Part shown: positions 4,902-60,516 of the stretch, one piece after another
How positions within the stretch are numbered: position 1 is the first letter of the stretch
Layout of the letters: each line of letters opens with the position of its first letter
From: Dermatemys mawii
Taxonomy: Eukaryota > Chordata > Testudines > Dermatemydidae
Reading direction: 5' to 3'
Length of the DNA: 64,000 nt
Assembly: GCA_007922305.1 (NCBI GenBank)
Contig: ML677331.1
Location: forward strand, 306,858-370,857
Translations under genes and position numbers: made by a program
The notes under the pieces: generated by a model
What the model saw: only the letters and a program-made list of their open reading frames with translations
What the model was told of the DNA's origin: nothing
Databases searched by the model: none

Positions 4902-6211
4902 TGTAACCCTTCTGCCCATCGGAGTTGGCAGCAACAAGGGCCGGGTTCAGTATCCAGGGGTTCCATTCCAATAGCACAATACAAAAACCGGCTCGAGCCC
5001 CCACCCAGTGACCTGGGACAACCATATACCACTCCTCTGGGCGTCTGTAAGAGACAATACTTCCCCTCTCGCAAGCACAGAGTCTGAGTGTACCAAAGCC
5101 TTTTAATAACAGGGAGAAACAATGTGGCATTGTATTGGGGAAACACCACAAACAAGGTTAATAAACCAAACCATGAACCAGAAGCCCCCCTCCCAGCAAA
5201 TAGGCCGTGAGTTCCACAACCCCAAAAAGTCACTCAATAGTCCCAAAAGTCCAGCAGCCCAAGCGTCTCTGTTCTGGGTCAGTGCAGAGTTCAAAAGTCA
5301 CTTGGCAGAGTCTTACCTCCCAGCGTGGGTGGAAATGGAGGGTAGGGCATGGGGCACCTTACATGGTCTGAGGCCGACTGCACCGCCTCTCTGTGAGGTT
5401 CTCTGCAGCCCTCACCGCAATCCGCTCTGCTCTGCTCGCCAACACTCAAACTGCTCTACGCACCAGTCACTCCGCTAGCCGTCCTGCTAGCCGACACACA
5501 GACTGCTCTGCTGTGCCAGCCACACAAAGTACACCCAGGAACCGCTCAGCTGAGTCCACTGCTTTGCTCTGCTAGCTGCACAAATTGCTTGGTGCCACCC
5601 ACATGCCTTTAAGCCCACCCCCACTGAACACAGGGCTTAGTGGTTTCAGCTCTTAGTGCAGGGGGGGGGAGAGAGGGAAAATAGCACCTTGACACAGGTA
5701 CACCAGCAGAGTCAAAGTGCATTCAGCTTAGCAGGCTGAACCAAGACTTCTAAGGGAATCAAAATGAGCTCTCACATTCCACAATGTAGAGAGGCATGGT
5801 ACAATAGGTGGGGAGAGGTATCCTTAAACAAGTCCCTCACCAAAAGGTATAGAGACTCATCTATAGCCTCTCTCAATCTCAGAGCACTCTGAAACGCATG
5901 GCCCTTGACCAGTGAGTGCTACTTAGATGATGGCGAGTCCTGCCATCTTAACAAGGGCCAAGTACATGTCCATAGTCCTTAATTCACACAATCAGGGTAA
6001 CATCACTTTATCATTCCTGCCCCAGTAACATAGAAACTGGGGCTCCCACGTCAGCCGAAGTGGCCATGTGGGCTGCTGTGAGCTCAGGCTAGGCGTAGTG
6101 GGTGTGTCTATGCAAATTGATCAGCCCCAAAGTTATTTTCCAAAACTCACTGCAATTCCCATAATTCGCCACCAGATGTCAGAATATATCTCATTCCTGA
6201 CACTGCTTACA
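4902..6211 (-). mobile_element. Solo LTR of the Ty3/Gypsy family, reverse orientation
   Basis: On the minus strand this 1310-bp block is co-linear with both LTRs of the full element at 49950-58880. It begins TGTAAGCAGTG (complement of 6201-6211) and ends GGGTTACA (complement of 4902-4909), so it has the same TG...CA ends. No internal coding region adjoins it, so it is a solo LTR, presumably left by recombination between two LTRs. Flanking 4-mers are taca and ttca, a target duplication with one mismatch. It contains only one copy of the 46-bp motif that is tandemly repeated in the other two LTRs. It keeps G at nearly all sites that read A in the edited 3' LTR, so it serves as an outgroup. Confidence 0.92.
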
Positions 6212-6805: not shown

Positions 6806-7035
6806 GAATCAGAGGGGTAGCCGTGTTAGTCTGGGATTGCAGAAGTAACAAGGAGTCCTGTGGCACCTTAAAGACTAACTACAGTATTAGAGCATAAGCT
6901 TTCGTGAGCTAATACCCACTTCGTCAGATGCATGCCTCCGACGTGGTGGGTATTAGCATACGAAAACTCATGCTCTAAAACTTTTTTTAGTCTTTAAGGT
7001 GCCACAGCACTCTTTGTTAGCCTGTATTTTCCAGA
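6806..7035. mobile_element. Penelope-like-element-associated foldback repeat, copy 1
   Basis: The left arm (aatcagaggggtagccgtgttagtctgg..., then cctgtggcaccttaaagact and gctaatacccac) is a sequence I recognise from abundant reptile repeats linked to Penelope-like retroelements. It is followed by its own imperfect inverted copy: gtgggtattagc at about 6940 and agtctttaaggtgccacag at about 6988-7007. The arms are about 95 bp and about 80% alike by eye, with a short centre. No reverse transcriptase or endonuclease coding is left here. The Penelope attribution is from memory of the family and less sure than the inverted-repeat structure. Confidence 0.6.
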
Positions 7036-12796: not shown

Positions 12797-13288
12797 CCGC
12801 ATGGATGAGTTCCTTGCCCTCCTCCCATGAGAGTGGCTCAGGAAAATCAAGAGAGAGCAGGCAGAAGCAGTTCAGATGGAAATCAGAAGAGAAGCAGGTG
12901 GCTGTATCCTCGTTAGGTTCCCATTATGGTTGTGCTTCATTCAGGTCTCACTTTTTATTTATTGAAAATGGTACCAAAAAGGCTATTGAAATATTTCATT
13001 TACTAAAAAGCCATTTCAATACACGAAAACTTTTCAGTACGTAGCCCGATACAAATTTTGAGGAGAGGTGGCAGGAGAAGGGTAAAAACCCATGACAACC
13101 AAAAATTGTTGACAATGTTTATCGTCTTTCACAAAATATGTAGTTTTGGAAAAGTCATTGCTTTATTTAAAATAATTGTTTAAAAATATTGACCAGTTCC
13201 AACTGTAATGCAGCATTTGCACCTATCTTGTATGTTGATTATTTCATTCCACTGGGAATACTACAGAAGAACTTTTTCATAGTGGAAG

Positions 13289-13418
13289 TAAGGTGGCCAG
13301 ATATCCCAATTTTATAGGAATAGTCCCAATTTTGGGGTCTTTTTCTTACATAGGCTTCTATTACCCCACCCCCACACTTCCTGTCCTGCTTTTTCATACT
13401 TGCTGTCTGGTCACCCTA
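13289..13418. mobile_element. TA-flanked short MITE, copy 2 of 5
   Basis: Same family and orientation as 8142-8265: left end TAAGGTGGCCAGAT, right end TCTGGTCACCCTA, with the cccaattttggggtctttttctta core. TA is present at both borders. It is slightly more diverged at the left terminus than the other copies. Confidence 0.72.
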
Positions 13419-24100: not shown

Positions 24101-24447
24101 CAGTTTCTAAAAGATGAAAGTGGGTTTTTTCCCATCAAAATATTATGACTTTTTTAAAAAAAAAAATGACCCAAATGAACATTTTTGTTCGGTCAAAAAG
24201 TCTTTTTCTGCTGACAAAGTTTGGATGGGAATTTTTTAACCCCTCAATGTGAGCAGGATACCTGACTCCCCTAGAAGATACGAACTAGAGGAGGTTTCAG
24301 ATGTTTCCTCTCCTCTCATAAGGTCACTTAGAGCACACCACTCAGCCTGTCTGTGTTCTCTGGCGGTGGGAAGTTGTCTATGGGGAAAAAAACTCATGAA
24401 ATTCAGTTTGTGCCTGCAACTATCCAGTTGTGCTGGTGGAGTTGGGC
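21113..24447. other. Unclassified non-coding DNA
   Basis: No recognisable genes or repeat ends. Includes short purine-rich tracts (21240-21380) and A/T homopolymers. Open frames do not exceed about 97 codons and show no domains. Confidence 0.4.
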
Positions 24448-24573
24448 TAGGATGACCAGACAGCAAATGTGAAAAATTGGGACAGAGGTTGGAGAGTGTT
24501 ATAGCAGCCTGTATCAGAAAAAGACCCAAAAATCGGGACTGTCCCTATAAAATTGGGACATCTGGTCACCCTA
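24448..24573. mobile_element. TA-flanked short MITE, copy 3 of 5, inverted
   Basis: Reverse orientation relative to copies 1 and 2: left TAGGATGACCAGACAGCAAA, right ACATCTGGTCACCCTA, with TA at both borders. The interior keeps the gggactgtccctataaaatt core. Confidence 0.75.
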
Positions 24574-27500
24574 GGTTGAGCCAGCTTGAATTGGTCTTTC
24601 TGTGCTCACAAGCACCGGCAAGTGAAAGGGTGTGAATCTCTGCAAATCTAAGTGGCATGGGGCTTTGTTTGAAAAACCCAGGAAAAATAAAAGCAAAATA
24701 ATTCAGGCAGCCTGAGATGTAGCTCTCCTTTGTGTGACATCAGTTTAAACGGCCTGAATGCAGGGATGGGCCCAGCACTGAAGTGACTAATACACTTTAG
24801 TTTACAGTTATGTGAATCACATTCTAATCAGTTGTGAAATTTCTGTACAACTGTGTATCTGAGAAGGAATATGATGTGGCACCTCATAGGCAGGCTCAGA
24901 TCAGTGCTCTACACACATTTCATTTTATTTGGACACATTGCCGCCATTTTTAATGGGCTTATTGGCTTTCCTGCTAATAGCAACCAACCTAAATTGTAAC
25001 TGATTCGGATGTGCATTGCAGTATTGACTTTTGCTTGATTTACATGGTTTTTACCCTCCTTCGTGGACCAGATGATAACATGAGATCCTTGACTAGGAGA
25101 CAGACTGGAGCAGATTATACAAAGATGCATTAGAAACTGACTAGATAATTGTTGAATGTGTTGCCAAAGGCCAGGACAGCTAACTCCGCTCCTGGAGCAG
25201 GCTATATAGATATAATCTCTCTTAACTATGCTAAATAGTTTGTCACTGTGGCTGTCTTCGAAGTCCAGCGTATGGATCCATACAAAACACAAGTCATGCT
25301 TCTGGAGAGCAGGGACACAACTGAACACTCAGTTATTAAATAACAGGTGGTAAGCACAGGCTGGCATGTCGTCAGACACCACCATCCCCAGATCTACAGG
25401 AACAAACCGTGACAGGAGACCTTGCAGATTTTCCAAAACTGCTGGAACTTTCTTTGGAAGTTTTGGGTTTCACAAAACTGTTTCCTCCTTTAATTTAACC
25501 ATTTTCCCCCCTAGGGAAATGTAATTCAAAAAAAGAAAGGCAACTTCTGGCTTTTCACCTGGGGGCAGTGCTGGATGTGGGCCTGTAGCTATGGCAGTTG
25601 AGCTGAAGCATGTCAACACATTCTACCAGAGCAGTCCAACAGTTCGAATGCTCAGAGATCTGTCTGAAGTGCAAGAACAACAAATAACTTTGGAGTAGAT
25701 TCTGCATTCAGCAAAATTGAGTTTTCCCACCCTGAGTGACATTTCCTGCTTTAATGTTGGATTTGCCCTAGCAACTGGTCATTCCTTAAGCACCTCAGCC
25801 AAGAAATGACTGGTCATTTAATAGACAAAAAAAGAGATGGCTGGTCTCCAGTTTTTTAAGTTATTGGTACAGAATGCAGCTTCCTGCGCTAACACACACA
25901 CACTCCATACTAGTACAGCTAATATCTCTGATTTCCTTTTAGTGCTTAGGTAGCGGTGGCTGTTTGACACATTCTATTCAATTAATTTGGTTGACTTGGT
26001 CCAGTCCCCAAGGGACAAGTGTCCATATCTCCAAACACTGGCACACTAGTTGGCAGTTTTAGCATGGAGGCCAAGGACTAAACATTTATGGAACTGAGCT
26101 ACCCTGTCTGAGCTAGAGGTGGTCCCTTGCAGATCAGGTTTAGAAACACTGGAAGGACTGTATGGGAATGCTTGTACAAAGACTGCCTGTTCTGTTGCTT
26201 AGTAGAGGACTCTGGTCTCCAGAGCTGTCAGCAGAGCACCTTTCATGATTACTAAATTCATACAAAGGGAAAGTATGGATGTTTTCAGTATGGCTGGAGA
26301 GCACGCTGGCTTGTCTACTTTAGAGGGGGGGAAAGGGTAACAGTGAGTGACTAAAATAGCATCTTCCAGTAGTTTTAATTGATAATGAGTGGAAACTGTT
26401 TGAATGCTCCAAGATTTAGAGTTTCTCATTGCAATGTATCAGTTAATGTGGAAAAGCAGATAAGAAGACCAATATTTGATGGACCTTAACAACACTCCCC
26501 CCCCCCACCTCAGAAGGACATATTGATGGCTGATGATCTTTTGTTTCCTTCTACACACACAAAGGCCTGAGCACAATAAATCTCATAAAATATTCTCAGG
26601 GAATCAGTCTAGAAGGAAAGAAGAAATCTAAAATCATGTTTCTAGCTGCCAGTAAATTTCCAATAAGAATTCAAAGTGTTCTTCGAGAAATAGAGTGTAT
26701 AGAGATACCTATAGAGCACAATAGGCTTGTTACCTGAGAGAAAGCATCCCTCTCATGCCATACTCACCACAGTTGCAGTTGGTGGAGGTAGGTACTAATG
26801 ACAGCGCTCCCTCATTTGACATGAGAAGAAGCCCCTACTAGTGCATTCTCTGTGTATTCCTCTCAGTTTTAGAACTCACTTTCCACCTTCATCAGCCTGA
26901 GTATGAACTGGTTCTTTCATGTTCCAGGCATACCACAAAGTCCATCTTCCTCCTAAGCATCTGGGAAGAGGAGGAGCTGGGAGGTCAAGGTGTTCTATTA
27001 TGATCACTTGCGGGGCCTGTGCTAATGTTGGGCTAAATAAGGCAGCTATTAAATTTCACAGCTAAATATTTTGCACTGAATGCTGTTCATCTATGTAAGG
27101 TTATATTCTAGAGTATAAGACCGATGCTTATCAAGTTAATAAATATGAGAAACCTCCTGAGTGAATAACTTTTCATCATGTTGTACCAGTCATCACAGAT
27201 GATGACAAAGCAGAGAGATATAAGAGATGAACGGTAAAAATTTACCTTGCAGATACTCAAGATCAGTGGAAATCTCTGAGCCTTTAGCAAAGATGAGTGA
27301 CCAATTCTAACTACAAGAAAGGCTCATGGTATTTCCAGGCCATTCAGAAGTACGAAATATCAAAACTTTCATCAGCTTTTGCCTAGTAATTCCAGCCCAG
27401 AGCTTTAGATCTGTGAAATTCAGAAAAGCATCAGGACTTTGGGGTGCTTACATGAACTGAATGAATCTATGAACATTTTGAGGTTTGTGCACCTTTGGAA

Positions 27501-30260: not shown

Positions 30261-32194
30261 ACTTTACAAGTAATTGGGTTTTGCTGAAAGACCACAGAAT
30301 AGAAAACATGAAAAACCAGAGCAGACCAAATAGATTTCCGAGTGTCAATTCTAAATCTTTTCTTTCTCTTTGTCTCCTGATAATGGCCTACCAGGCAAAG
30401 TTTCAAAAGCAAAATCATCAGACTTGCACAATAAGCAAATAGAGGCTATTCTGGGGAAATAGGTGCATTTTTTTTAAAAAAAAGACAAATTTTAATGGGA
30501 TGAGAAAGCATGTCCCTGATTCTGGCTATTTATAGACCAATGAGTCTTGCCGCTATAATGTAATCATTAAGTCATTTACTACTGGTAATTTGGATTCTCA
30601 TTTTCTTTTTCAGACTGAATATAAAATTGTACAGCTGTGTCTAGCTGTTGCTCAGAACTGTAAAGAATGATATGATAATGTAATCCTCTATTCAACTGAC
30701 AGTGTGATTGACAGAGGACACCTAGTGGTGGAACAGCTGGCATAGTAAAATTGTACTTCACAGAGACTAACGGTAAAATTTTCAACATCATATAAGTCAC
30801 TAAGAGGAGCCTAAATCCCAGTGGCTCTCAATAGGACTTAGATTCCTCAGTGACTTGCATGTTTTTGCAAATGGAACTTAGGATGTTATAAGTCACTGAG
30901 GCACTTGTTGGAAATTTTACACTAACTGGTTATTTGCTCTGTGATGTGACAGAAGAAATGTTGGGTGGGAAAAAAGCTCGGTGGAAAGACTTCAGAGAGG
31001 TCATGAGAAGACATGGAAGACATTCAAACCATGTTTGGAATATATAGTTTACTACTAGTGACAGTGATGCAGTACCCAAAGCTCTGGACCATTCTTCCCT
31101 TCACAATATCAAAGCTGCCTAACAGTTTTAGACTCCTGGGGAGCCAAATCCCTTGGGTGACTTTAAAAATCTGAGCCTTGAAGTAGATGGCTGTAATTGA
31201 TATAGGTAAACAGTTCTAAAAGACAGCTGCTGCCTCTTAAGCCACCCTATCCCATGAATCCTACATTGTTTTTATGTCACTCCCTCCATAGGAGATTTGA
31301 AACAGATGGAAAATTCTATGGTGACCAGACGGCAAATGTGAAAAACGGGATAAGGGGTGGGAGGTAATAGGAACCTATATAAGAAAAAGACCCCAAAATC
31401 AGGACTGTCCCTATAAAATCGGGACATCTGGTCACCCTAGAAGATTCCCAGTCCACTTGTGAGGCCTTTTAATTCAATGATAGGAGGATGTCAGCAGTCT
31501 GCTTCCCATCGCTTTACAGACTGGCTGGAAAGAGTGTTCCTTTCCACTGCTTGGTTGACTGACAGCCTGAGCAAGCATGGCTCAGGCAAGCTGAAATGGG
31601 GCCAGGATGCTCCATACAAGATCTCTGTGCAGAGGCAGAAACACAGCACCACAGGGAGCTTACAAGACTTTAACTCCTAAACGGGAAATTTTCCTGGTTG
31701 CTTTTTCAGCATGGTTTCCAACCCCTTGGGCACACAAAGAGGATATAGTTAACGAAAAGTTTAAAGGCTAGTATGGAATGCTTGATCACCGCTGCTAAGG
31801 TCAAAGAAGAAGACCTGTCTAGCAGGAAGCTTTTTTCTGATAGCCCATGATAGCTTTCTTCTGCCCCAAGTAGATGTGATATGAGAAGCCCCACGAGTGC
31901 TGGATGTGGTAGGAAGGAGAACAATCCCTAAGAGGTTAAAGGTATTAGGCATGATATTGCAGCTCCTTTTGTCTACCACACCTTTAAACATGGCAGCAAT
32001 CTCTCCCCACGTAGAGTGTGGCTGTCATGTTCACACAGCTCAATACAGATATCACTTTTCTTCTGTTTTGCTGTTCTGTCTTCATCTAAATGTAAGTACT
32101 TTTAGAATGAGTATATTTGTTTACTCTTTGTGTCTGGGGAAACATAAACATAGGAAAGACATTGTTATGGGAACAACCATAAAATGGTGAAGAG
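30261..32194. other. Unclassified non-coding DNA with one MITE
   Basis: Apart from the TA-flanked MITE at 31317-31439 I recognise nothing. Open frames are under 100 codons. Confidence 0.4.
31317..31439. mobile_element. TA-flanked short MITE, copy 4 of 5, inverted
   Basis: Left TATGGTGACCAGACGGCAAA, right ACATCTGGTCACCCTA. The core ggactgtccctataaaatc is intact. Same orientation as copy 3 and TA at both borders. Confidence 0.75.
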
Positions 32195-34498: not shown

Positions 34499-35899
34499 GC
34501 AAGTTTCAGGCCTCTGAAGCCCTCACCCAACAGAAGAAGCTGAATCATCTAATATAATATGTGGAGAAATATTTTACCATCCTAAATCCCATAGGTCTTC
34601 TCTGCACAAGTAAAGACTTTTTAGAAAATTTCTGCATAGGAAGTAGTCCCCACCTGGTCCCTCCCTGCAGCCATTACCTCAGCTATATCAAGACTTGTAA
34701 CTAGAATACATATGCTGATCCTGCTGGAGTTGTCTTCATTCTGCCTCTCACCTAGCATATGCTCAGGCTGAATATGAACTAATACCAGATTCTTTTTCAT
34801 CCCTGAAGAGCCAACAATGCTCCTGTTGTTTCCATTATTCACAAGCGACAAACAAAATAGGAAGTTCATCCAGTTTCAGAGCTTATACTGTCTACATGTT
34901 TGCTCTTGCACATTGAAAGGGTATTTGTCCTATGCTATATCTTTACAAGTTTTGACTGAGCTCTTTCACAGAGGCTCCGGAATAAAACAAACTATAAACA
35001 AGTGAAGTATTCATCCCATCAAAAAAGCCTCCAAAAATTCAAATATGTTTTTAATTCAAATGATTCCTCTACAATGTTACTATTGTTACTATGTTTTAAA
35101 ACATCCAGAGCCTTTGCTTTTACTCCGAACTATTTCCCAGCATCAGTGTAAGAATGTTTCTGTGCTACTATGCTCTAGACTCTAGCCCAGTTAGGAGCTC
35201 AGCCACCGCTCCGATTGGCATGTTATTGCCTGAATAAAAGAGGGCAGAATAGAATTAACTAGCATTTTTGCTGTTTGAAAACAAAAGCAAATGAAAGGGA
35301 AAATTTTTAGTATTTTTCTTTTCCCTTATATTTTAAAGATTAAGTGATAATGGTGGAGTTCTCTATTGATCTGTGTGATCTAATGATCCCCACTAGCCTT
35401 AAAATCTATGAAAACAATATAATTCATAGGATAACGCAGAGAAAAATAAAAATCTATAATATAAAAAAAGATTGAAGTAGTCCCCCAAATACTCTAGACT
35501 TCTTAAAGCACACACAAGTAGTCCAATCCTGGAAATATTTATGCATAGAAGTAAAGTTAAGCATTTGTGTGTTTTCAGGCTCATAGTCTTAGAAACAGCT
35601 AAATTGTTTATCAGTACAGGAATGACTTGAATGTCCAAAACCAAACCCCATTATGAGTGAGTCAGCATTTGAAAGACGTCTCTCTTCCCGTGTGGTGGTG
35701 GTGGTGCTGTAATCAGCAGAGCCACTTAGTTTGGAGCCACTTTGGAAAGATTTTCTCAGTGACCAACCCTCATCTTTTGAATTCATTCTCTCCTCCCTTG
35801 TTCCAAAATTGCCACCAATTTATTGACCCCCCCCCCCCCACCCAGCATCTGCACAGGCACAAATAGTTTGAGAATCCTCTGGTGGCCCTTACTATCTTC
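33143..35899. other. Unclassified non-coding DNA
   Basis: AT-rich. It contains a TG/TA microsatellite (34451-34495), a tiny CR1-tail-like piece at about 35370-35408 (gatctaatgatccccactagccttaaaatctatga split by mismatches), a GTG/GGT trinucleotide run near 35690-35706, and a C-run near 35827-35838. No genes seen. Confidence 0.45.
34451..34495. repeat. (TG)n(TA)n microsatellite
   Basis: About six TG units followed by about 16 TA units. Length is likely polymorphic. Confidence 0.95.
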
Positions 35900-36022
35900 T
35901 AGGCTGACCAGATAGCAAGTGTCAAAAATTGGGACAGGAGGTAGGGGGTAAGAGGAGCCTATGTGAGAAAAAGACCCAAAAATCTGGACTGTCCCTATAA
36001 AATCAGGACATCTGGTCACGCA
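35900..36022. mobile_element. TA-flanked short MITE, copy 5 of 5, inverted
   Basis: Left TAGGCTGACCAGATAGCAAG, right ACATCTGGTCACGCA. The right border has lost the TA by substitution. The interior core ggactgtccctataaaatc matches copies 3 and 4. Confidence 0.7.
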
Positions 36023-49435: not shown

Positions 49436-49949
49436 TGAATGGCTCTATGAGGAAAACCAAGAAATCAGAGTCATATAAGCCCAGGGAAGATATGGTCTTG
49501 AGGAGAAAGGAGTGAAGCTAGCTTTCAAAGGCAGCAAAGAGAATAATTTTGATGCACATGCTATTTATTTAGTGGTGCATATACCTGACTGAGTTTCAGA
49601 AAGTATCCAGATTTAAAGGGGTCCAGAATGGAGATTTGAGGTGCTGGAAGAGAAGATGGATCAATCCAGATAACTGCAGATGCATAAAATGTTCAACTGA
49701 ATGGCTGTTTAGCTACAATTTATTTTTATTAAAACTCAGTGGAGAGATTTGGGGCACCAGAGGCAAAATAAAGTTGCTGCAGAGATCATAGGGTAAACAG
49801 ACCAAAACAATGAACCCCAGAGGAGTGACTTCCCACCGCAAGCAAGCTGCTATGATGCTAATAAAAATACTGGTATTTTACAAAAGAAAGGAAATGGATG
49901 AAACGATCATATCAGTCAACTGATGATCCTTAACAATGCTCATTACTCT
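49436..49949. other. Unclassified spacer before the Gypsy element
   Basis: No recognised features. The last four bases CTCT (49946-49949) are the left copy of the Gypsy target-site duplication. Confidence 0.5.
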
Positions 49950-51450
49950 TGTAAGCAGTGTCAGGAATGAGATATATTCTGACGTCTGGTGGTGAACTAT
50001 GGGAATTGCAGTGAGTTTTGAAAAATAACTTTGGGGCTGATTCATTTGCATAGACACACCCACTGCGCCTAGCCTGAGCCCACAGCAGCCCACATGGCCA
50101 CTTCGGCTGATGTGGGAGCCCCAGTTTCTATGTTATTGGGGCAGGAAATATAAAGTAATGTTACCCTAATTTGGTAAATAAAGGACTATGGACACATACT
50201 TGGCCCTTGTTATGATGGAGGGACTCGCTATCATCTAGGTAGCACTCACTGGGCAAGGGCCATGCATTTCAGAACACTCTAAGTTTGAGAGAGATTATGA
50301 GTAGATCTCTATATCTTTTGGTGAGAGACTTGACTAAGGCCCTGTCTACCTGCCTGTTGTACTGTCCTTCTTTCCACTGTGAAATGTTAGAACTAATTTT
50401 GATTCCCTTAGGAGCCTTGGTTCAGCCTGCTAAGCTGAAGTCACTTTGAGTCTGCTGATGTACCTGTGCCAAGGTGCTGATCCCCACCCCCACTAAGCAC
50501 TGAAATCACTTAAGAGCTGAGACCACTGAGCACTATGTTAAGTGGAGGTGGGCCTAAAGGCACATTCGTGGCACTAAGCAATTTGTACAGCTAGCAGAGC
50601 AAAGCAGCAGACTCAGCTGAGTGGTTCCTGGGTGCAGTTTGTGTGACTGGCAGCGGACTCAGCCAAGCGGTTCTGGGGTGCAGTTCGTGTGACTGGCAGC
50701 GGACTCAGCCAAGCGGTTCCTGGGTGTAGTTCGTGTGGCTGGCGGAGTGGCTGGCACAGCAAAGCAATCCGTGTGTCGACTAGCGAAGCCGTTTGTGCTG
50801 CTAGCAGAGTGACTGGCACCGCAGAGCTGTCCGTGTGTTGGCTAGCAGGACGGCTAGCAAAGTGACTGGCGCTGCAAAGCAGTTCAAGTGTCAGCGAGCA
50901 GAGCAGAGCGGATTGCGGTGAGGGCTGCAGCGGAACCCCACAGAGAGGCGGCGCAGTCGGCCTCGGACCACGTAAGGTGCCCCGTGCCCTACCCTCCATT
51001 TCCACCCAGGCTGGGAGGTAAGACTCTGCCAATTGACTTTCGAGCTCTGCACTGACCCAGAACAGAGACTCTTGGGCTGCTGGACTTTGGGACTATTAAG
51101 TAACTTTTTGGGGTTGTGGAACTCAAGAGCCAAAGGGAAGGCCACGGCCTATTTGCTGGGAGGGGGGCTTCTGGTTCATGGTTTGGTTTATTAACCTTGT
51201 TTGTGGTATTTCCCCAATATAATGCCACATTGTTTCTCCCTGTTATTAAAAGGCTTTGGTACACTCGGACTCAGTGCTTGCGAGAGGGGAAGTATTGTCT
51301 CTTACAGATGCCCACAGGGGTGGTATATGGTTGTCCCAGGTCACTGGGTGGGGGCTCGAGCCGGTTTTTGTATTGTGCTATTGGAATGGAACCCCTGGAT
51401 ACTGAACCCGGCCCTTGTTGCTGCCAACTCTGATGGGCAGAAGGGTTACA
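49950..51450 (+). repeat. 5' LTR of the Gypsy element
   Basis: 1501 bp, TG...CA, with 5-bp inverted ends TGTAA/TTACA. It holds two full 46-bp tandem units (50645-50736) plus a partial one. A TATA-like aatataaag lies near 50147 and an AATAAA near 50176. A second run, ttattaaaaggc, lies near 51243. I cannot say which are used. Compared with the 3' LTR, the first about 270 bp and the last 714 bp are close, while the middle (about 50270-50640) is much more diverged. It keeps G where the 3' LTR reads A. Confidence 0.95.
50645..50736 (+). repeat. 46-bp tandem repeat in 5' LTR, two full units
   Basis: Each unit begins gactggcagcggactcagcc and ends cagttcgtgt or tagttcgtgt. A partial unit precedes (from about 50608). 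Downstream, to about 50900, the same words (gtgactggc, gctagcag) recur in degenerate form, so the array probably grew from an older quasi-repeat. Confidence 0.93.
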
Positions 51451-51454
51451 TTTT

Positions 51455-51472
51455 GGGGGGCTCGTCCGGGAT
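51455..51472 (+). promoter_or_regulatory. Primer-binding site, tRNA-Pro type
   Basis: Four bases after the LTR end, 17 of 18 positions match the complement of the 3' end of tRNA-Pro (GGGGGGCTCGTCCGGGAT against the expected T at the first base). Reverse transcription would start here with tRNA-Pro as primer, as in many gammaretroviruses. The six-G run may instead be one inserted G after a T. Confidence 0.85.
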
Positions 51473-51567
51473 TGTCTGGGTCAGTACCCCTCGCAAGCAC
51501 CTGTTAAGTGATCCACTAAATTAGAAAATATTTGTGTTTATATGTTGGGAAAATTACTGTTTGTGTA

Positions 51568-53241
51568 ATGACTAATATGTCAGGTTTGTTGAGCCCTGGC
51601 CCTGCAGCCTCTAGCTCAGGGGCCGCAGCCTCGGCCGATAACTGGGCAAAAGCACTGGGGCAAACACTGGGGAAGATCATGCAGCCCTATGCTATGCCAA
51701 ACTCTGGTCGTAAGTTAAGGTTATTTGCTGGGGAGGAGGAGTTTGAACCCTGGTTAGAGCATACCACTAAAATGCTGCAAGAGTGGGACATACCAGATGC
51801 AGAAAAGCGAAGATGTTTAATAGAGAGTCTTGGGGGCCCAGCATTAGATGTGATTCGCACTTTGAAGCTCGTTGATCCTAGGGTCAGTGTGAAGGACTGC
51901 CTAGAGGCCCTTGGTCACACGTTTGGGAGCACAGAGGGCCCTGAAGACAGTTATTGCAAGTTCCTTAATTCCCAACAGCAAAGAGGTGAGAAGGCTTCAG
52001 CCTATATACAGAGGCTGGAGAGACTACTTCAGAGAGCTGTCATAAGGGGAGCAGTAACTGCTGAACAGATGGATCGAACCAAACTGGCTCAAATCGTAAG
52101 AAAAACCCAGTATCACAACCCAATCCTACTTCATCTCCAGTTAAAAGAACGACAGGAACATCCCCCAAGTTACTCAAAGCTAATAAAAGAGGTCAGAGAG
52201 GAGGAAGAAAGGCAGGCTGCCAGCGAGTTTTGGAAAGCCCAAACATCAGAACCACCCAGCACAACTCCACTACAAACAGCTAGTGTACTGATGATAAGCA
52301 CCAAAGAGAAGCTTGCCCAACAACTACAGGTCCTGACGGAACGGATAGCTAAGCTGCAAAGCACCATTAACCAAGCTAAGGCTTCCAGGAATGAGGAGTC
52401 TCAATTTGTGGCAGTGGAGACACCAGCATTTAGAGCAACCATCCCACTCAGGCACAGCAGAAAAGGGAAATTCTTCTGCTACCGATATGGTCAAGATGGG
52501 CACAGTGCTACCAGGTGCCATAAGGAAGAAAATCTCTCCCTAGTGTACAAAAAGCTGAGGAGCAGCTGGGAGAGATCCGGTAACTGCCCAAGCATCCAGG
52601 GACATGGACCACCCAGGACTGCAGGATTGGAAAATTCCCACAAACAAGACTGTTCATCTGGGATCCCCACCGGACTGATAGGGCCTCGGGCAAAGGTAAT
52701 GGTGAGGATTAAAGGGGCGGAGTGTAAAGCTGTGCTTGACACTGGATCTCAAGTGACTATTATATTCCAATCTTTCTACCAGCAGATGCTCAGGCATCTG
52801 CCTATACGGCCCTTGACAGGGGTTGGCCTGTGTGGCCTCAGCATGGATGAATACCCCTATCAGGGGTATGTCATAATACATCTGAAGTTCCCAAAAGAAA
52901 TCGCTGGGGTAAGACAGAAGGTGGACACTGCCGCTTTAATATGCCCTGACCCTAAGGAAGTCTCTGACGTGTCTGTGCTAATAGGGACCAACTCCAGTCT
53001 CTTTAGGGTGCTTGCCAATTACTGCAAACAGCGAGCAGGGGACCAGTACCTGAACACCTTAATAATACACACACATTGTGCTGCAGCCTACAGAAAAATT
53101 AAGAACATCAAAAAAGTAATGCCTGATTTGCCAGTGGGAGCATTAAAGTATGCGGGCCCAGTCCCCTTAGTGGTGCCTGCAATGACTGAAAAGAAGGTGT
53201 TTGTCAGGAGTACCTGCCTAAAGGCAGCAAGAAAGCATTAG
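51568..53241 (+). CDS. Gag-protease polyprotein of the Gypsy element, PNMA-like capsid
   Basis: The first ATG of the frame is at 51568 and a second at 51577 (MSGLLSPGPA) is equally plausible. The upstream part of the frame has no ATG. A Ser/Ala-rich leader of about 40 residues is followed by a capsid-like domain (GEEEFEPWLEHTTKMLQEW near residues 52-70, then ALDVIRTLKL and an alpha-helical stretch to about residue 220). This closely recalls the vertebrate PNMA family, which derives from Ty3/Gypsy gag. A short coiled-coil-like segment follows near 52310-52380. A CCHC knuckle at about 52477-52520 reads CYRYGQDGHSATRC, so its second Cys is Tyr. The aspartic protease has an intact DTGS (52738-52749). 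The frame ends at a TAG, one frame off from RT. Confidence 0.88.
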   Translation: MTNMSGLLSPGPAASSSGAAASADNWAKALGQTLGKIMQPYAMPNSGRKLRLFAGEEEFEPWLEHTTKMLQEWDIPDAEKRRCLIESLGGPALDVIRTLKLVDPRVSVKDCLEALGHTFGSTEGPEDSYCKFLNSQQQRGEKASAYIQRLERLLQRAVIRGAVTAEQMDRTKLAQIVRKTQYHNPILLHLQLKERQEHPPSYSKLIKEVREEEERQAASEFWKAQTSEPPSTTPLQTASVLMISTKEKLAQQLQVLTERIAKLQSTINQAKASRNEESQFVAVETPAFRATIPLRHSRKGKFFCYRYGQDGHSATRCHKEENLSLVYKKLRSSWERSGNCPSIQGHGPPRTAGLENSHKQDCSSGIPTGLIGPRAKVMVRIKGAECKAVLDTGSQVTIIFQSFYQQMLRHLPIRPLTGVGLCGLSMDEYPYQGYVIIHLKFPKEIAGVRQKVDTAALICPDPKEVSDVSVLIGTNSSLFRVLANYCKQRAGDQYLNTLIIHTHCAAAYRKIKNIKKVMPDLPVGALKYAGPVPLVVPAMTEKKVFVRSTCLKAARKH

Positions 53242-53693
53242 CAGTGGTAAAGCAGCCAGCCGAGGGAGGACTCCCTGAAGAAGTGCTGGTTCTCAGTGAA
53301 GTCATAACCGTACCTGCTGAAACCCAAAAAAAGGTGTCTATACTAATTGCTAATAAAACAAGCCGTAATGTGCTTGTACAACCAGGGCAGAAGATCGCAG
53401 ACATCTTTGAGCCTGAAACCATTGTAAGACCCCAAGGTGACAAGGACGTCCCAATGATGGATCCTGCAAAGTTTGATTTCGGGGACTCCCCATTGTCTGA
53501 GGCGTGGAAGTATCGCCTAAGAAAGAAGCTTGGTAAAAAATCCAAGGTATTCTCACTGCATGAGTGGGACGTGGAATGTGCCAAAGAAGTGAAACATCAC
53601 ATCAGGCTACAAGATCCTCAATCCTTCCGGGACAGATCTAGGAGGATTGCCCTCTCTGAAATGGAAGATGTACGATGACATCTTCAAGAGCTG

Positions 53694-54509
53694 ATGGCAA
53701 ATGGTATCATTAAAGAGTCCCGCAGTCCCTACGCCTCTCCCATTGTGGTGGTTCAAAAGAAAAGTGGGAAAATCCGGATGTGTATCGATTACCGCACCCT
53801 AAACAGGCGCACTATAGTTAATCAATACACCATGCCCCAAGTACAAGATGCCTTGAACTGTTTGCTGGGTAGCCAGTGGTTCCCTGTGTTGGATCTTCGG
53901 AGTGGATACTACCAGATCCCTCTGGGAAAAGAAGACAAGGAGAAGACAGCCTTCATCTGCCCATTAGGGTTCTACCAATTCAAACACATGCCCCAAGAAA
54001 TCTCTGGGGCACCTGCCACCTTTCAACGTCTTATGGAAAAGGTCGTGGGGGACATGAATCTACTGCAAGTATTAGTTTATTTGAATAACCTAATTGTGTT
54101 TAAAAAAACCTTAAAGAAGCATGAAAAAAGACTTCTTAAAGTGCTTAATAGGTTGGAGGCATATGGTTTAAAGCTTTCAATTGACAAGTGCCAGTTCTGC
54201 AGAACCTCGGTAAAGTATGTGGGTCACATCGTGTCTCAAAAGGGTGTGAGCACTGATCCCAAAAAAATAAAAGCACTCACTACCTGGCCATGTCCAAGTA
54301 ACTATAGAAAACTCAAGACCTTTCTTGGATTTAGTGGCTACTATCGCAAATTTGTGAAGAACTATGCTTCAATCGTAAAACCTCTAAATGATCTTACCAA
54401 GGAATACCAGTCCAACAAAAACAAATCTAAAACCAAAAATAAGGGAAGGTCCCCAAAGCCTCCAGTGCAGAGACACTATGGCCCCTTTGAACCTTTTGGG
54501 CCAAGGTGA
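53694..54509 (+). pseudogene. Reverse transcriptase domain, catalytic pair lost
   Basis: Recognisable RT blocks in order: PYASPIVVVQKKSGKIRMCIDYR, here broken at PYASPIVVVQKK and IRMCIDYRTLN; FPVLDLRSGYYQI with the first catalytic Asp intact; GAPATFQRLM; and the box normally YxDD, which reads YLNN at 54078-54089. Both aspartates that bind the catalytic metals are Asn, so the enzyme would be inactive. Both codons (AAT AAC) differ from Asp codons by one G-to-A change in GpA context. The thumb and connection (KTFLGFSGYYRKFVKNY) follow. A TGA closes this stretch at 54507-54509. Confidence 0.93.
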
Positions 54510-54990
54510 AATGAAAAATGTAAAAGGGCATTTCAAAAAATCATTACTCACCTAACTTGTGCTCCAGTCCTAGTCTTTGCTGACCCCAGCAAGCCATTTA
54601 TCCTACATACCAATGCCAGTTTAAAGGGTCTGGGAGCAGTACTGTACCAAAAAGTGGAAGGCAAACGTAAACCTGTAGCGTTTGCCAGCCGAGGACTGTC
54701 TGACAGTAAAACTCGCTATCCTATCCACAAGCTGGAGTTCTTGGCCTTAAAATGGACCATCACCAAAAAATTTCGAAACTATCTGTATGGGGCTCAGTTC
54801 CAGGTGTGGACAGACAACAACCCATTGACTTATGTGTTGACAAGTGCTAAGCTGAATGCTACAGGGGAAAAATGGGTGGCCACCTTGGCTAGCTATAAGT
54901 TCAGCATTCAATACCGCTCAGGAAAAAGCAATGTAGATGCAGATGCTTTGTCCAGGCGTCCGCAGGCACCAAAAATTGCTGTAATACCCA
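54510..54990 (+). pseudogene. RNase H domain of Gypsy pol, first catalytic Asp replaced
   Basis: The domain runs from about 54560 (ADPSKPFILHTNASLKG) through KLEFLALKW with its Glu, WTDNNPLTYV with its Asp, and DADALSRRP with the last Asp. The first active-site residue, Asp in the usual TDAS motif, is Asn here (codon AAT at 54612-54614), again one G-to-A step in GpA context. It would degrade the RNA strand of the hybrid during reverse transcription in an intact element. Confidence 0.9.
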
Positions 54991-55289
54991 CAAATGAAGT
55001 GAAAGCTATCTGCAGTGTAAGTTGCCAAGAGCCAGAGGCCCATAAGAGCCTTTATGGATGTGTTGCAAAAGCGCTGGGCCTGCCCCCAGAATGCGTGCCT
55101 TCTGCTTCAGTAAACTATATTGCATTGGACCAATCTCCCTTGCCCATGCTCAATGCAGCTGACTGGCAAGAAGCCCAGCTGCAAGATGCTGACATTCATA
55201 ATACACTACTTGCTAAAAGGGAGAGGCGAAGCCCAGCTGCCATTGTCCCACCTACCTCAGAGGGTAAACTGCTATTAAGAGAATGGGCC

Positions 55290-56879
55290 AAACTAAAGCT
55301 AATTCAAAAAGTGCTACACCAAGTAACTATGAACCCTTTACAAAAACAGCGAGCACAGCTAGTGTTGCCAAAGAAGTACCGAGCCCTGGCCATGAGGGCT
55401 CTGCATGACGACTTTGGACATCTAGGGATGAAAAGGACCCTGAAACTTATTCGTAATAGGTTCTATTGGCCCCGAATGGCTGAAGATGTCCGCAGGAAAT
55501 GTAAGTCATGTGCTCAATGTGTTCAAAGGAAAACTCTGCCCACGAGGGCGGCATATCTCAAAAACATCACCAGCGACAAACCTTTGGAACTAGTATGCAT
55601 CGATTTCTTGTCTCTAGAAGTAGACAGAAGAAATGTTGGAAACATCCTAGTAGTAACTAACCATTTTACACGGTATGCGCAGGCATATCCCACACGTGAT
55701 CAGAGGGCCACCACTGTCGCTCGAGTACTGTGGAAAAAATATTTCTCAGTCTACGGATTCCCGGCCCAGATACACTCCAATCAGGGGCAAGACTTTAAGA
55801 GTCACCTTCTGAAGGAGGTGCTAAAAATAGCAAAAATTAAAAAGTCTAGGACAACGCCTTATCACCCGCAAGGTGATCCCCAGCCAGAGAGGTTCAACCA
55901 AACCCTGTTGAATATGCTGGGAACTCTGCGACCAGAGCAGAAGGCAACCTGAAGCCAGCATGTCGCATTTCTGGTGCATGCCTACAACGCCACCAGAAAT
56001 GATGCTACGGGAGTCACTCCATATCTCTTAATGTTTGGGCAAAAACCCAGATTACCCATAGACCTGTGCTTTGGCGTATCAAAGAATAAAAAAAGCTATA
56101 AAACACATCAGCAATATGTATCCCGTCTAAAAAAAAAGCTGCGGAATGCTTACCGCCTAGCTACGTCTGCGGCTCGAAAAAATGCAAACCGCAACAAACA
56201 TCCATATGACGCTAAAGTACGTTTACAGAAGCTCCAACCGGGAGACCAAGTCCTGCTGCAAAATTTGGGTATTGCCGGCAAACACAAAATAGCTAACAAA
56301 TGGAAGGCAATACCTTACCTAGTGATAAAAAAACTAGAAGATCTGCCGGTCTACAAGATCAAACCTAAAAAGGGTCCAGGGCAAATAAAAACGGTGCATA
56401 GGAACCTTTTGCTCCCTGTGGGGAAATTGGTAGGCACCCCTTATGAGATGGGCCATGAGAGGGCGGCTGGGCAGAACCAAAGTGCTAGGCCAAGGCCGCC
56501 ATCCAACATGGCCTGCGGGCGCTCTAGAGCTAACCTACACCTATTCAGCATGTCAAAAAGTGAGGCAGAGGAGGAAGATACAATCATGGTGTATCCCAAA
56601 ATGAAAACAAAATCTCAATCCCAATCAGCTAAGCCAATAAAAAGTTCCCCCTCCTCAGCTCTAAACCCCATGGCAAAGGCATTTAGGCCCGTTACTGGCA
56701 CCCCTATGCCATCAATGGAACCCTTGTGTAATAACGCACACAGCTTATCCAACAGTAAAGACATCCAGCTGAAGAAGGCCCTAGGCACGTTAAACCTTCC
56801 ACGGCCAAAACCAAAAATGCCAAAACCTATGCCAGTAGCCAAAAAATCCCCCCAAAAAACCTTTTCATCCGTCGCTTAA
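55290..56879 (+). pseudogene. Integrase domain of Gypsy pol, second catalytic Asp replaced
   Basis: A zinc-binding HHCC region is intact (HDDFGH near 55405, then CKSCAQC near 55500). The core has its first Asp (LVCIDFLSLE, about 55590-55620). The second reads Asn (IHSNQG, codon AAT at 55779-55781) and the Glu is kept in PQPERFN (about 55880). A TGA at 55950-55952 follows KAT, where the same frame resumes directly with SQHVAFLVHAYN. The C-terminal part (RLQKLQPGDQVLLQN near 56220) is a normal GPY/F-type module. A basic tail runs to the TAA at 56877. There is no chromodomain. Confidence 0.9.
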
Positions 56880-57071
56880 AAAAATGTCACTCCCACTCCT
56901 GCCACAAAGATCCTCAATAGACGGGACAGGGTAATAAGACCAGTAAAACGGCTAACTTATGATGCACCTGGGGTAATTAGTAAGGAGCCAATACACTTAG
57001 CACACAGGTTTGTAAGAGCTAAAGTGGAATTTCTGAGGCCCTTTGACAAAAACCAAAAGTTGGTATTATAG

Positions 57072-57116
57072 GGAGTGTGATTTGTCGGGACGACAAATTC
57101 TTGGCTGGGGGGTGGA
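57072..57116 (+). promoter_or_regulatory. Polypurine tract and upstream 7-bp palindrome
   Basis: The purine run ggggggtgga (57107-57116) directly abuts the 3' LTR and is the expected plus-strand primer site. Just upstream, 57081-57097 reads tttgtcg-gga-cgacaaa, a perfect 7-bp inverted repeat with a 3-nt loop, placed immediately after the pol stop. Confidence 0.8.
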
Positions 57117-58880
57117 TGTAAGCAGTGTCAGGAATGAGATATATTCTGACATCTGGTGGCGAACTATGGGAATTGCAGTGAGTTTTGAAAAATAACTTTG
57201 GGGCTGATTCATTTGCATAGACACACCCACTGCGCCTAGCCTGAGCCCACAGCAGCCCACATGGCCACTTCGGCTGATGTGGGAGCCCCAGTTTCTATGT
57301 TATTGGGGCAGGAAATATAAAGTAATGTTACCCTAATTTGGTAAATAAAGGACTATGGACACATACTTGGCCCTTGTTATGATGGAGAGACTCACCACCA
57401 TCTAGGTAGCACTCACTGGGCAAGGGCCATGCGTTTCAAAACACTCTGAAATCAAGAGAGGCTATAGGTTGATCTCTATATCTTTTGGTGATGGAGTTGT
57501 TTAAGGACATTTCTAGGTCTCTTGTACTGTGTCTCTCTCCACTGTGAAAAGTTAGAGCTAATTTTGATTCCCTTAGGAGTCTTGGTTCAGCCTACTAAGC
57601 TGATTTCACTTTGAGTTTGCTGGTGTACTTGTGCTAAGGTCCTAACCCCAACTGTACCCCCCCCCCCACTAAGAGCTGAAATCACTTAAGAGCTAAAACT
57701 CCTAAGCACTGTGTTAAGTGGGGGCAGGCTTAAAGGTATGTTGGTGGTACTAAGCAATTTGGGCAGCTAGCAGAGCAGTTCCTGGGTGCAGTTCGTGTGA
57801 CTGGTAGTGACTTCAGCCAAGCGGTTCCTGGGTGCAGTTCGTGCGACTGGCAGCGGACTCAGCTGAGCAGTTCTTGGGTGCAGTTCGTGTGACTGGCAGC
57901 GGACTCAGCCAAGCGGTTCCGGGGTGCAGTTCGTGTGACTGGCAGCGGACTCAGCCAAGCGGTTCCGGGGTGCAGTTCGTGTGACTGGCAGCGGACTCAG
58001 CCAAGCAGTTCCGGGGTGCAGTTCGTGTGACTGGCAGCGGACTCAGCCAAGCAGTTCCTGGGTGCAGTTCGTGTGACTGGCAGCGGACTCAGCCGAGCGG
58101 TTCCTGGGTGCAGTTCGTGTGACTGGCAGCGGACTCAGCCAAGCGGTTCCTGGGTGCAGTTCGTGTGGCTGGCGGAGTGGCTGGCACAGCAGAGCAGTCC
58201 GTGTGTCGACTAGCGAAGCCGTTTGTGCTGCTAGCAGAGTGACTGGCACCGCAAAGCTGTCCGTGTGTCGGCTAGCAGGACGGCTAGCAAAGTGACTGGC
58301 GCTGCAAAGCAGTTCAAGTGTCGGCAAGCAAAGCAAAGCAAATTGCGGTAAGGGCTGCAGCGGAACCCCACAGAGAGGCGGCGCAGTCGGCCTCGGACCA
58401 CGTAAGGTGCCCCGTGCCCTACCCTCCATTTCCACCCAGGCTGGAAGGTAAGACTCTGCCAATTGACTTTTAAGCTCTGCACTAACCCAAAACAAAAACT
58501 CTTGGGCTGCTGGACTTTGGGACTATTAAGTAACTTTTTGAGGTTGTGAAACTCAAGAGCCAAAGGGAAGGCCACGGCCTATTTGCTGGGAGGGGGGCTT
58601 CTGGTTCATGGTTTGGTTTATTAACCTTGTTTGTGGTATTTCCCCAATATAATGCCACATTGTTTCTCCCTGTTATTAAAAGGCTTTGGTACACTCAGAC
58701 TCAGTGCTTGCGAGAGGGGAAGTATTGTCTCTTACAGACGCCCAAAGGGGTGGTATATGGTTGTCCCAGGTCACTGGGTGGGGGCTCGAGCCGGTTTTTG
58801 TATTGTGCTATTAAAATAAAACCCCTAAATACTAAACCCGGCCCTTGTTGCTGCCAACTCTGATGGGCAAAAGGGTTACA
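57117..58880 (+). repeat. 3' LTR of the Gypsy element, G-to-A edited, expanded tandem array
   Basis: 1764 bp, against 1501 bp in the 5' LTR. Most of the difference is six extra 46-bp units. The last 714 bp align to 50737-51450 without gaps. Of 31 differences, 24 are G in the 5' LTR and A here, 18 before A and 6 before G. The solo LTR carries G at 22 or so of these, so the change is in this copy. Examples are the ctattaaaataaaaccc block at 58808-58824 and gcaagcaaagcaaagcaaat at 58324-58343. Confidence 0.95.
57799..58166 (+). repeat. 46-bp tandem repeat array in 3' LTR, eight full units
   Basis: Eight contiguous 46-bp units (starts at 57799, 57845, 57891, 57937, 57983, 58029, 58075 and 58121) plus a 25-bp partial unit before them. 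Units 3-5 share ccggggtgcag while the others mostly have cctgggtgcag, so internal units were duplicated in blocks. There are no unique spacers, so this is a minisatellite. Confidence 0.95.
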
Positions 58881-59357
58881 CTCTAAAGAGAGGAATAAAT
58901 TCAAGAGAGGATGTGATTGTGAATGACTGTCAGTAACAGAATCAGCAGGAACAAACTCCACGATAGCATCTCTGAAATAATAATAGTTTAGCAATCAGAA
59001 TAAACAAGACAACTGAATACACAGATGTAAATTGTAATGGGCATTTGAAACTTAAGTAAAAGAAAATGCTGGTTGGATAGGAAAATCAAAAGATGACATT
59101 GTCCAGCTACTGCTCTGTCAGCATAACAAGATTTGTATGAGGACCGAAAGACTGGTGAGGGAAACCATATGGGGTCAGCACAAACCTGTTCCACTCAGGG
59201 ATGAGGCTAGTAATGGTGAAGAAGCAGTCTTGGGGAAGTAGTCTAGGGTTTACTAAGATGATTCTGCTGCTGACCCCAGCTTTAGGGCCAGAAGATAGAG
59301 CTCCATGAGCAGGAACTCCCTTTTCCTGTCAGCTGTGAAGGAATCAGTCAGGTTCCT
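58881..59357. other. Unclassified spacer
   Basis: Begins with the right CTCT target duplication of the Gypsy element and ends with GGTTCCTG, the left target duplication of the hAT element. Nothing else recognised. Confidence 0.5.
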
Positions 59358-60516
59358 GCAGGGCCAGATTAAGACCTTTAGAGGCCCTAAGCACTGAAAA
59401 GACTATGGTGCCCCCCCATGTGTAATTCAAAATAAAAACAATACTATACCATAAAATAATTTATTTTTTGGAAATGACACAAAACTTTAATGTATGCTGA
59501 AATTAAAATAGCTTCTTTCGAGATTTTCTGATTGCAAAATTCTGGATAAGTTCATCAAAACTGACTCGACAAGGCATGTCCGCTTCCATATACAATAGGG
59601 AAAGTGAATCAAGTCTGTCCTGACACATTGTTTTTCTTTTCAGCTGAGAAAAAGAGCATTCTGCGGAGCAGTTAGTAATCATCAATGTTAGAAAAATACG
59701 TAGTGTGATCTCTGTATTTGGAAATACACATTGTATTCCATCTTTCAATATTGTGTCATGAAGATCAATGTGACTGAATTTCATTTTTCCTGTTTCATTA
59801 AACATTGTGTGCATATAACAATGTAACTGCCGTACTTCTCCACAGAGATTCATGTTCAAGTCAACAGGGTATGAGTCAACTAGCTTATGGGAACCTTGTA
59901 AATATTGTTCATCAGATAAGTCTATATCATTTAGAAAAGAAAATCTACTTGATACTTCTTTGTACACTTCACCTCTCTTCGTATCAGCTTCAAGTGTATC
60001 AATTATAGAGTACTAAGTAGATACACAAAATTTGTCTCTAGGATTCAATGCTGTTTCTGTTGCACTGCTATCATTTGCTTGGTTTTTTCCTGATTCGCTT
60101 GTGGGACTGGGCTTCTTTGTAGTTAGTATCAGGCAAGATATCTTTTGATATGTCTTCAAATCTTTCGAAATCATTTCTCAAAGTGTGTAAGTGGTCCTTT
60201 CAAGCTCCCCTCCTGACTAGCTACATGAGAGGATCTGATTTCATCACATTATTTCAATCTATTTTAGTAGGATGCCTCCCGGTTTAGGTGAGGATAAGTA
60301 ATAAAAAGAGAACACAAAAACAGGGGCAAGAGTGTGTAGCAGAGTATAAAGAAGTCTAACAAAGTTCTGATTTTTCCCATGTTGATTACTTTGATGCTTT
60401 TTTTGAAATATCAAATATCAAATTTTTCCAAACAAAAATCTCATTTTTTTGGTGCCCCTTGCTTTGCTGGTGCCCTAAGCACGTGCTTAGTCTGCCTATT
60501 GGGTAATCCAGCCCTG
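59358..60516 (-). mobile_element. Internally deleted hAT DNA transposon with perfect 8-bp target duplication
   Basis: The left end cagggccagattaagacc and the complement of the right end (cagggctggattacccaat) are inverted termini of hAT type. Both are followed inward by ctaagcac. The element is flanked exactly by GGTTCCTG on both sides (59350-59357 and 60517-60524). It is 1159 bp, much shorter than an autonomous hAT, and keeps only the 3' part of the transposase (59503-59967, minus strand). The perfect duplication suggests a rather young insertion, or good luck. Confidence 0.88.
59503..59967 (-). pseudogene. hAT transposase C-terminal (dimerisation) domain remnant
   Basis: A 154-codon open frame. 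Its second half carries the hAT C-terminal dimerisation signature (TEITLRIFLTLMITNCSAE, then CSFSQLKRKTMCQDRLDSLSLL and a DELIQNFA end). Resemblance is to ZMYM1-like and other vertebrate hAT-derived proteins. The N-terminal zinc finger and the catalytic RNase H-like core are absent. Sequence upstream on this strand (59968-60250) is non-coding or too decayed. It cannot act as a transposase. Confidence 0.8.

Follow-up and report, generated by a model that had tools for sequence, protein, structure and literature searches.

A turtle Ty3/gypsy retrotransposon carries strand-biased G-to-A changes in its internal region and 3' LTR, consistent with deamination of its cDNA

Results

A Retrotransposon Edited on One Strand. 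The 64,000-nucleotide stretch of turtle DNA analysed here (herein the window) contains an LTR retrotransposon whose internal region and 3' LTR are marked by an excess of G-to-A changes, most of them at GpA. We regard it as very probable that the cDNA of this insertion was deaminated by a host enzyme that prefers TpC, and that most of the edits in the LTRs were made after plus-strand strong-stop synthesis. The parts of this explanation differ in strength: that minus-strand cDNA was deaminated is close to certain; the displaced-strand timing is likely, with the displacement step taken over from the established scheme of reverse transcription; and the enzyme is most likely APOBEC1-like, a candidate suggested by the sequences of host genes. 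An initial annotation of the window had proposed APOBEC-type deamination of first-strand cDNA from the LTR pair, and this is now strongly supported by the strand bias, the GpA context, the derived state of the changes, their clustering, their all-or-none distribution over copies, a gradient along the element and the presence of deaminase genes in the genome.

Identity of the Element. Among LTR retrotransposons the element belongs to Ty3/gypsy (Metaviridae), and its gag is of PNMA type; its features are listed in Table 1. The reverse transcriptase (RT) stretch has its best matches in 4ol8 (E = 2.7e-49) and 7q5b, which is Ty3 (2e-48), followed by 8r0s (2.4e-29) and 7o0h (1.2e-21). Pfam orders the pol frame as RT, RNase H, H2C2 zinc finger and integrase core; the remainder of the frame (55953-56879) has no Pfam match, which bears on the question of an envelope gene. 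A reading of the element as an endogenous retrovirus is ruled out by RT and gag, both of which are Ty3/gypsy. A search of the window with Rfam gave 0 matches at gathering scores. We take the primer binding site region to resemble a tRNA-Pro site. Two stops in the pol frame can be compared with other copies; one stems from G-to-A in a tryptophan codon and the other does not, so that editing accounts for just part of the breakage. Metaviruses with a PNMA-type N-terminal domain are described in PMC11011659 as retaining activity in reptiles, amphibians and fish.

The window holds several other repeats and mobile sequences. An ORF with a hAT transposase dimerisation match lies just 3' of the element (59503-60012, minus strand). 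Two stretches match their own reverse complement (6846-7019, 84% over 174 bp; 19731-19810, 83% over 80 bp) and are likely palindromic mobile elements. A repeat of ~125 bp occurs in five copies, on both strands (8142-8265, 13288-13420, 24447-24574, 31314-31440 and 35897-36019), and is presumably one known from turtle genomes.

Table 1. Coordinates of the element, its parts and related features in the window
Feature	Position	Strand	Basis or remark
Solo LTR, same family, outgroup	4902..6211	-	
Target site duplication CTCT, left	49946..49949	.	
5' LTR, starts TGTAAGCA, terminates GGGTTACA, few edits	49950..51450	+	Alignment, printed ends
Hypervariable U3 block of 5' LTR, not part of editing	50274..50549	+	
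46-bp tandem repeats, 3 copies, 5' LTR	50604..50743	+	
Primer binding site region	51451..51475	+	From sequence
Internal stretch used for comparison with 18 other copies	51451..54690	+	115 G-to-A vs 11 C-to-T, 5'-to-3' rise
gag ORF, PNMA family (PF14893), in edited region	51520..53241	+	Pfam
Reverse transcriptase stretch of pol frame, closest to Ty3 RT	53679..54509	+	
RNase H, then H2C2 zinc finger, then integrase core	54510..55952	+	Pfam
Remainder of pol frame, without Pfam match	55953..56879	+	
Stretch immediately 5' of 3' LTR	56753..57116	+	G-to-A vs copy L061
Purine-rich stretch, likely polypurine tract (putative role, from sequence)	57097..57116	+	
3' LTR, the edited one	57117..58880	+	Alignment, edit counts
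46-bp tandem repeats, 8.7 copies, 3' LTR	57774..58173	+	
Final 714 bp of 3' LTR; 24 derived G-to-A, nothing else derived at differing sites	58167..58880	+	
Target site duplication CTCT, right	58881..58884	.	

Differences between the Two LTRs and Their Polarity. The final 714 columns of the LTR pair align without gaps and contain 31 differences: 24 G/A, 3 A/G, 2 T/C, 1 C/T and 1 C/A (5' LTR/3' LTR). The 24 G/A sites comprise 18 before A, 6 before G and none before C or T. Both sets of counts agree exactly with those made by hand in the initial annotation, and the imbalance of 24 vs 3 is significant (p = 2.5e-5). The solo LTR of the window has G at 23 of the 24 sites, close to the earlier estimate of about 22.

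The differences were polarised against 29 other copies, namely the window solo LTR and L003-L030; two pairs among them are apparently allelic or duplicate contigs, leaving about 27 independent copies. The claim that the A states are derived in the 3' LTR holds at 23 of the 24 sites. The exception is 58697, where the change lies in the 5' LTR (A in 29/29 other copies), and position 58745, scored above as C/A, is a G-to-A change in the 3' LTR before A (G in 29/29 other copies). After polarisation the differing sites resolve into 24 derived G-to-A changes and nothing else in the 3' LTR, and 8 changes of mixed type in the 5' LTR; one site, 58739, is polymorphic, with the 5' LTR state in 5/29 other copies. 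Each derived A is present in at most 2 of the 29 other copies, and this rules out A as the ancestral state; as the comparison copies were picked by similarity to the edited LTR, copies sharing A states are if anything over-represented. Scored against the per-site majority instead, the 3' LTR has 33 G-to-A changes and 0 others, and the 5' LTR 12 and 5.

Edits confined to the 3' LTR fall at 18 of 47 GpA sites vs 4 of 170 other G (p = 2e-10). Four of the five remaining GpG edits in the 3' LTR are the first G of a GGA that reads AAA, i.e., they are consecutive edits, and 58541 is a lone GpG.

Editing in the Internal Region and in Other Copies. The restriction to the 3' LTR given in the initial annotation is incorrect in that form, as heavy editing also extends over the internal region and five GpA edits occur in both LTRs. 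Over 51451-54690 the window copy carries 115 G-to-A vs 11 C-to-T changes, with 90 of the former before A (GpA odds ratio 11.5, p = 3e-29). Hypermutation over this interval is seen in five of 19 distinct copies, with GpA odds ratios of 11.4 to 18.5 and, for the four copies other than that of the window, p from 1e-14 to 2e-35; the ratios of G-to-A to C-to-T are 115/11 in the window, 115/8 in L048, 55/13 in L051, 49/11 in L042 and 44/1 in L040. GpA bias is absent over the same interval in the other 14 of 19 copies (all p above 0.1), and the distribution over copies is thus all-or-none. The 19 copies are 22 rows minus 3 twins (L035, L041 and L050). Scoring covered the best 40 of the 2413 candidates for the LTR and 40 of the 69 for gag, with the gag matches L053-L060 and 13 unfetched gag rows outside the editing counts; since the scored copies are a selected subset, 5/19 is not a family-wide rate. 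The editing claim had been tied to an inequality of the two transitions in other copies and to non-ancestral A states, and both were found: the edited copies have 44 to 115 G-to-A vs 1 to 13 C-to-T.

At GGA trinucleotides, an edited second G is accompanied by an edited first G in 30 of 117 cases, and an unedited second G in 7 of 358 (p = 6e-14), which indicates that the GpG edits at these trinucleotides are mostly consecutive TpC edits. Any two edited copies have 0 or 1 derived changes other than G-to-A in common per pair (L052 was also left out of the unedited set in this edit-sharing comparison). The edits are therefore mostly independent between copies, and amplification of one edited master copy is ruled out. 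For 3 of 10 copy pairs there are more edit sites in common than a simple expectation predicts (p below 0.001; 49 vs 32.9 for the window and L048); the gradient described below together with hotspots can suffice to explain this excess, and common ancestry of some sites may contribute. One copy, L040, has 45 G-to-A changes and no other derived change relative to the unedited set, or 6 other changes by a looser yardstick, and its editing event looks young by either.

The copies recovered differ in form. All 28 of the non-window LTR loci L003-L030 are without the queried internal sequence within 1.5 kb on either side and look like solo LTRs. Two of them, L016 and L020, carry edits at 9 and 8 of 47 GpA sites, which shows that edited copies persist also as solo LTRs. 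The short contigs C290 and C508 each contain two gag copies with an LTR between them (tandem arrays or assembly joins), and C45/C46 and C2/C3 are apparent allelic duplicates in the assembly.

A 5'-to-3' Gradient of Editing. The edited fraction of GpA sites rises from 5' to 3' across 51451-54690 in all five edited copies (trend p from 1e-6 to 4e-4); in the window copy five successive bins give 0.14, 0.20, 0.47, 0.29 and 0.58. Immediately upstream of the 3' LTR (56753-57116), comparison with copy L061, which belongs to a provirus without signs of editing (L032), finds A at 30 of 109 G overall and at 21 of 36 GpA. Within the 3' LTR of the window copy, the first 291 bp have 3'-only edits at 0 of 19 GpA sites, a measure that ignores edits common to both LTRs, unlike the 21/36 upstream. 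Beyond 54690 the comparison resumes at 55519, and for 55519-57116 the sole long one is with L070, from the edited C508 array, and gives 18 G-to-A vs 16 A-to-G and then 30 vs 15; it is ambiguous because both copies are edited, and the G-to-A excess is weak in the upstream part. The shape of the gradient matches that known for minus-strand exposure, as set out in PMC2041998 and PMC2564838.

LTR Asymmetry in Other Proviruses. GpA edits present in both LTRs, in the 5' LTR only and in the 3' LTR only number 5/1/18 in the window provirus, 3/1/16 in that of C49 and 4/0/16 in that of C46; the salient feature of the LTRs is the near-absence of 5'-only edits. This asymmetry is seen in three of the four edited proviruses for which two distinct LTR reads exist, the reads of these four pairs coming from distinct places. 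The counter-case is C20 (L051/L080), in which 430 bp of the 3' LTR give 2/2/0 over 34 covered sites, with no 3'-only GpA edit. In the fifth edited unit, C508, both reads are the same LTR and there is no pair; the C45 allele of C46 shows 18 G/A vs 2 A/G in direct comparison and is not an independent case. In a reference of 41 rows, made without edited, distant and twin rows and without the window solo LTR, each row has 0 to 2 such GpA sites and 24 rows have none. Two unedited pairs were usable: L038/L067, without any difference, and L044/L073, with a balanced set (5 G/A vs 10 A/G). L034/L064 and L041/L069 are each one LTR read twice and are of no use as control pairs.

The asymmetry is not uniform along the LTR. 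Pairs in which a G of the 5' LTR is matched by an A of the 3' LTR occur at 8 of 53 GpA sites in the first 291 bp vs 53 of 135 in the last 714 bp (pooled p = 0.0016); among the single proviruses, only the window copy has a significant early-U3 deficit (p = 5e-4; C49, p = 0.42; C46, p = 0.31).

Discussion

Proposed Timing of the Edits. Under the proposed mechanism, the cDNA of one insertion would have undergone deamination, most probably while it was being reverse transcribed for the last time. The minus-strand cDNA would have been single-stranded longest near the polypurine tract, so that edits would climb from 5' to 3'; this cause of the rise is established for retroviruses, and we infer it here. 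A few LTR edits would precede the copying of plus-strand strong-stop DNA and hence appear in both LTRs. Once the minus strand was extended over the plus-strand strong-stop DNA, the minus-strand copy of the future 3' LTR would be displaced from U5 onward and become single-stranded a second time, and edits made at this point would be found in the 3' LTR only. Few common edits, many 3'-only edits, almost no 5'-only edits and a higher density toward U5, in three of four proviruses, fit this displacement timing. The initial annotation had likewise placed the editing after plus-strand strong-stop transfer; as the best explanation of the LTR asymmetry, repeated in two other proviruses, this timing stands for the window copy, and it does not carry over to the fourth edited provirus, which differs.

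Two cDNA Molecules or Gene Conversion as Unlikely Alternatives. The LTRs of the window are not simply identical sequences plus edits, as shown by a U3 block (50274-50549 in the 5' LTR, about 57441-57716 in the 3' LTR) and by the number of adjoining 46-bp repeats, 3 vs 8.7 copies within one insertion. Pairwise diversity in the block is about 0.10-0.34 per 30-bp bin vs about 0.03-0.09 before it, and the window LTRs differ at 53 of 273 sites within it (about 20%) vs 6 of 300 before it. Such differences in the U3 block and in repeat number would be expected if the two LTRs came from two cDNA molecules, unedited plus-strand strong-stop DNA of one having been transferred to the edited minus strand of the other within one particle; intermolecular transfer has been proposed for asymmetric HIV-1 LTRs (PMC9278108). 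We nevertheless think this origin unlikely. The first 271 bp of the two LTRs are 99.3% identical, whereas neither is more than 97.8% identical to any other fetched copy; GpA edits are common to both LTRs in three proviruses (5, 3 and 4); and divergence near the repeats is also present in the unedited pair L044/L073. As such divergence accompanies the repeats without editing, the U3 anomaly is kept apart from the editing here.

The U3 block also bears on post-insertion gene conversion, in which part of one LTR would have been replaced from another copy. It looks conversion-prone: 10 of 10 differences between L010 and L013 (allelic), and 25 of 53 between the window LTRs, are variants of at least 3 other copies. 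This hints that conversion shaped the block in part, and the block may be a gene-conversion hotspot beside a minisatellite. As a source of the LTR asymmetry, however, conversion is very improbable, as there is no donor with the A states among the 29 copies, and the changes run in the same direction in three proviruses with largely independently edited internal regions. Displacement of the minus strand remains our preferred account of the LTR asymmetry.

Candidate Deaminases of the Host. In the genome (G000, 1.815 Gb, 1030 contigs), two lysozyme C exons have chain 2gv0, a soft-shelled turtle lysozyme, as their top hit (95.5 and 84.9 bits, vs 81.3 and 71.4 for the next) among the best 60 of 278 and of 274 matches, a result that would not set turtles apart from other reptiles. 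The repeats of the window look turtle-like. A search of this genome with the APOBEC_N profile, PF08210, gave 13 matches: 8 on C28, 2 on C231 and 1 each on C98, C30 and C42. At C28:35897680-35965498 five similar APOBEC-like exons adjoin a three-exon AID-like gene, and C231 adds two further exons; the cluster is expanded. The three-exon gene looks like AID by its exon layout and position alone. Three exons of the C28 cluster were read, and all are open and contain the HAE and SPC-x-x-C motifs. APOBEC-1 is the best solved-structure match of each (5e-35, 9e-33 and 5e-39); among Pfam models, APOBEC1 ranks first for one of the three and below SNAD4 for the other two, and NCBIfam assigned 0 families to the deaminase exons. 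No APOBEC3 locus was recognised among the 13 PF08210 matches, judged by linkage and best matches with three exons read. For the terms searched, the painted turtle paper contains no text on APOBEC.

The adjoining AID-like gene, so named from position and exon layout, raises the prospect that AID itself, and not an APOBEC1-like enzyme, was the editor. AID prefers A or G before its target C, whereas 90 of the 115 internal edits have T before C on the minus strand, and this counts against AID to the point that we consider its involvement very improbable. Ordinary ageing of the 3' LTR, by CpG decay or otherwise, has a negligible chance of being the cause: the window is indeed CpG-poor (observed/expected 0.22), but the derived 3' LTR changes are 24 G-to-A vs 0 C-to-T, a strand asymmetry that refutes CpG decay, they follow the GpA context, and the unedited pairs have either no differences or balanced ones.

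Returning to cDNA editing by an APOBEC1-like enzyme, we lean, with somewhat better than even confidence, toward a broader proposal: that the AID-linked APOBEC1-like cluster of this turtle may be an equivalent of APOBEC3, editing within particles the cDNA of a Ty3/gypsy element that is, or recently was, active, and that the classes of both-LTR, 3'-only and early-U3 edits would record the order in which single strands were exposed. If this is true, fossil copies could be used to read the reverse-transcription intermediates of a non-retroviral element. LTR divergence overstates the insertion age of edited copies; in the window about 24 of the 31 differences would count as age.

Comparison with Known Systems. 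Edited LTR elements, endogenous retroviruses, were reportedly found in birds, which are sauropsids, by Knisbacher and Levanon in 2016; the element described here is Ty3/gypsy. A search of open-licence PMC papers on editing and Ty3/Metaviridae, turtles or reptiles listed no title or abstract that treats edited LTR elements from hosts of this kind. Zebra finch elements are tabulated in PMC12548423. The editing described for the green anole by Lindic et al. (2013, PMC3880073) is alike in involving a non-mammalian host in which APOBEC1 is suspected; it differs in being found in L1 and not in L2, CR1 or LTR elements. Our data are indirect evidence that enzymes of APOBEC1 type edit LTR elements outside mammals, of which that reptile survey found no case. 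The edited endogenous murine leukaemia viruses of Jern et al. (2007, PMC2041998) share the excess of G-to-A over C-to-T, the TTC context and the 5'-to-3' gradient; they are retroviruses edited by APOBEC3, and the term "LTR" does not appear in the searched text.

The closest parallel is with mouse mammary tumor virus (MMTV) and APOBEC3. Shaffer et al. (2025, PMC12548423) describe four Mtv proviruses with 3'-LTR-specific G-to-A changes together with edits common to both LTRs, explain them by displacement and claim them as previously unreported. The two systems are alike in G-to-A changes private to the 3' LTR, edits in both LTRs, internal edits, consecutive edits and the displaced-strand explanation. 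They differ in that MMTV is a retrovirus of mouse edited by APOBEC3, whereas here a Ty3/gypsy element is edited in a host that has APOBEC1-like genes and in which no APOBEC3 was recognised, and the polarity between early U3 and late U5 is weak. Editing specific to the 3' LTR is therefore already known, from 2025, in mouse retroviruses, and is found here in a Ty3/gypsy element and in a host without a recognised APOBEC3. As the pattern is repeated in a different class of element and a different host, displaced-strand exposure may be general to LTR elements.
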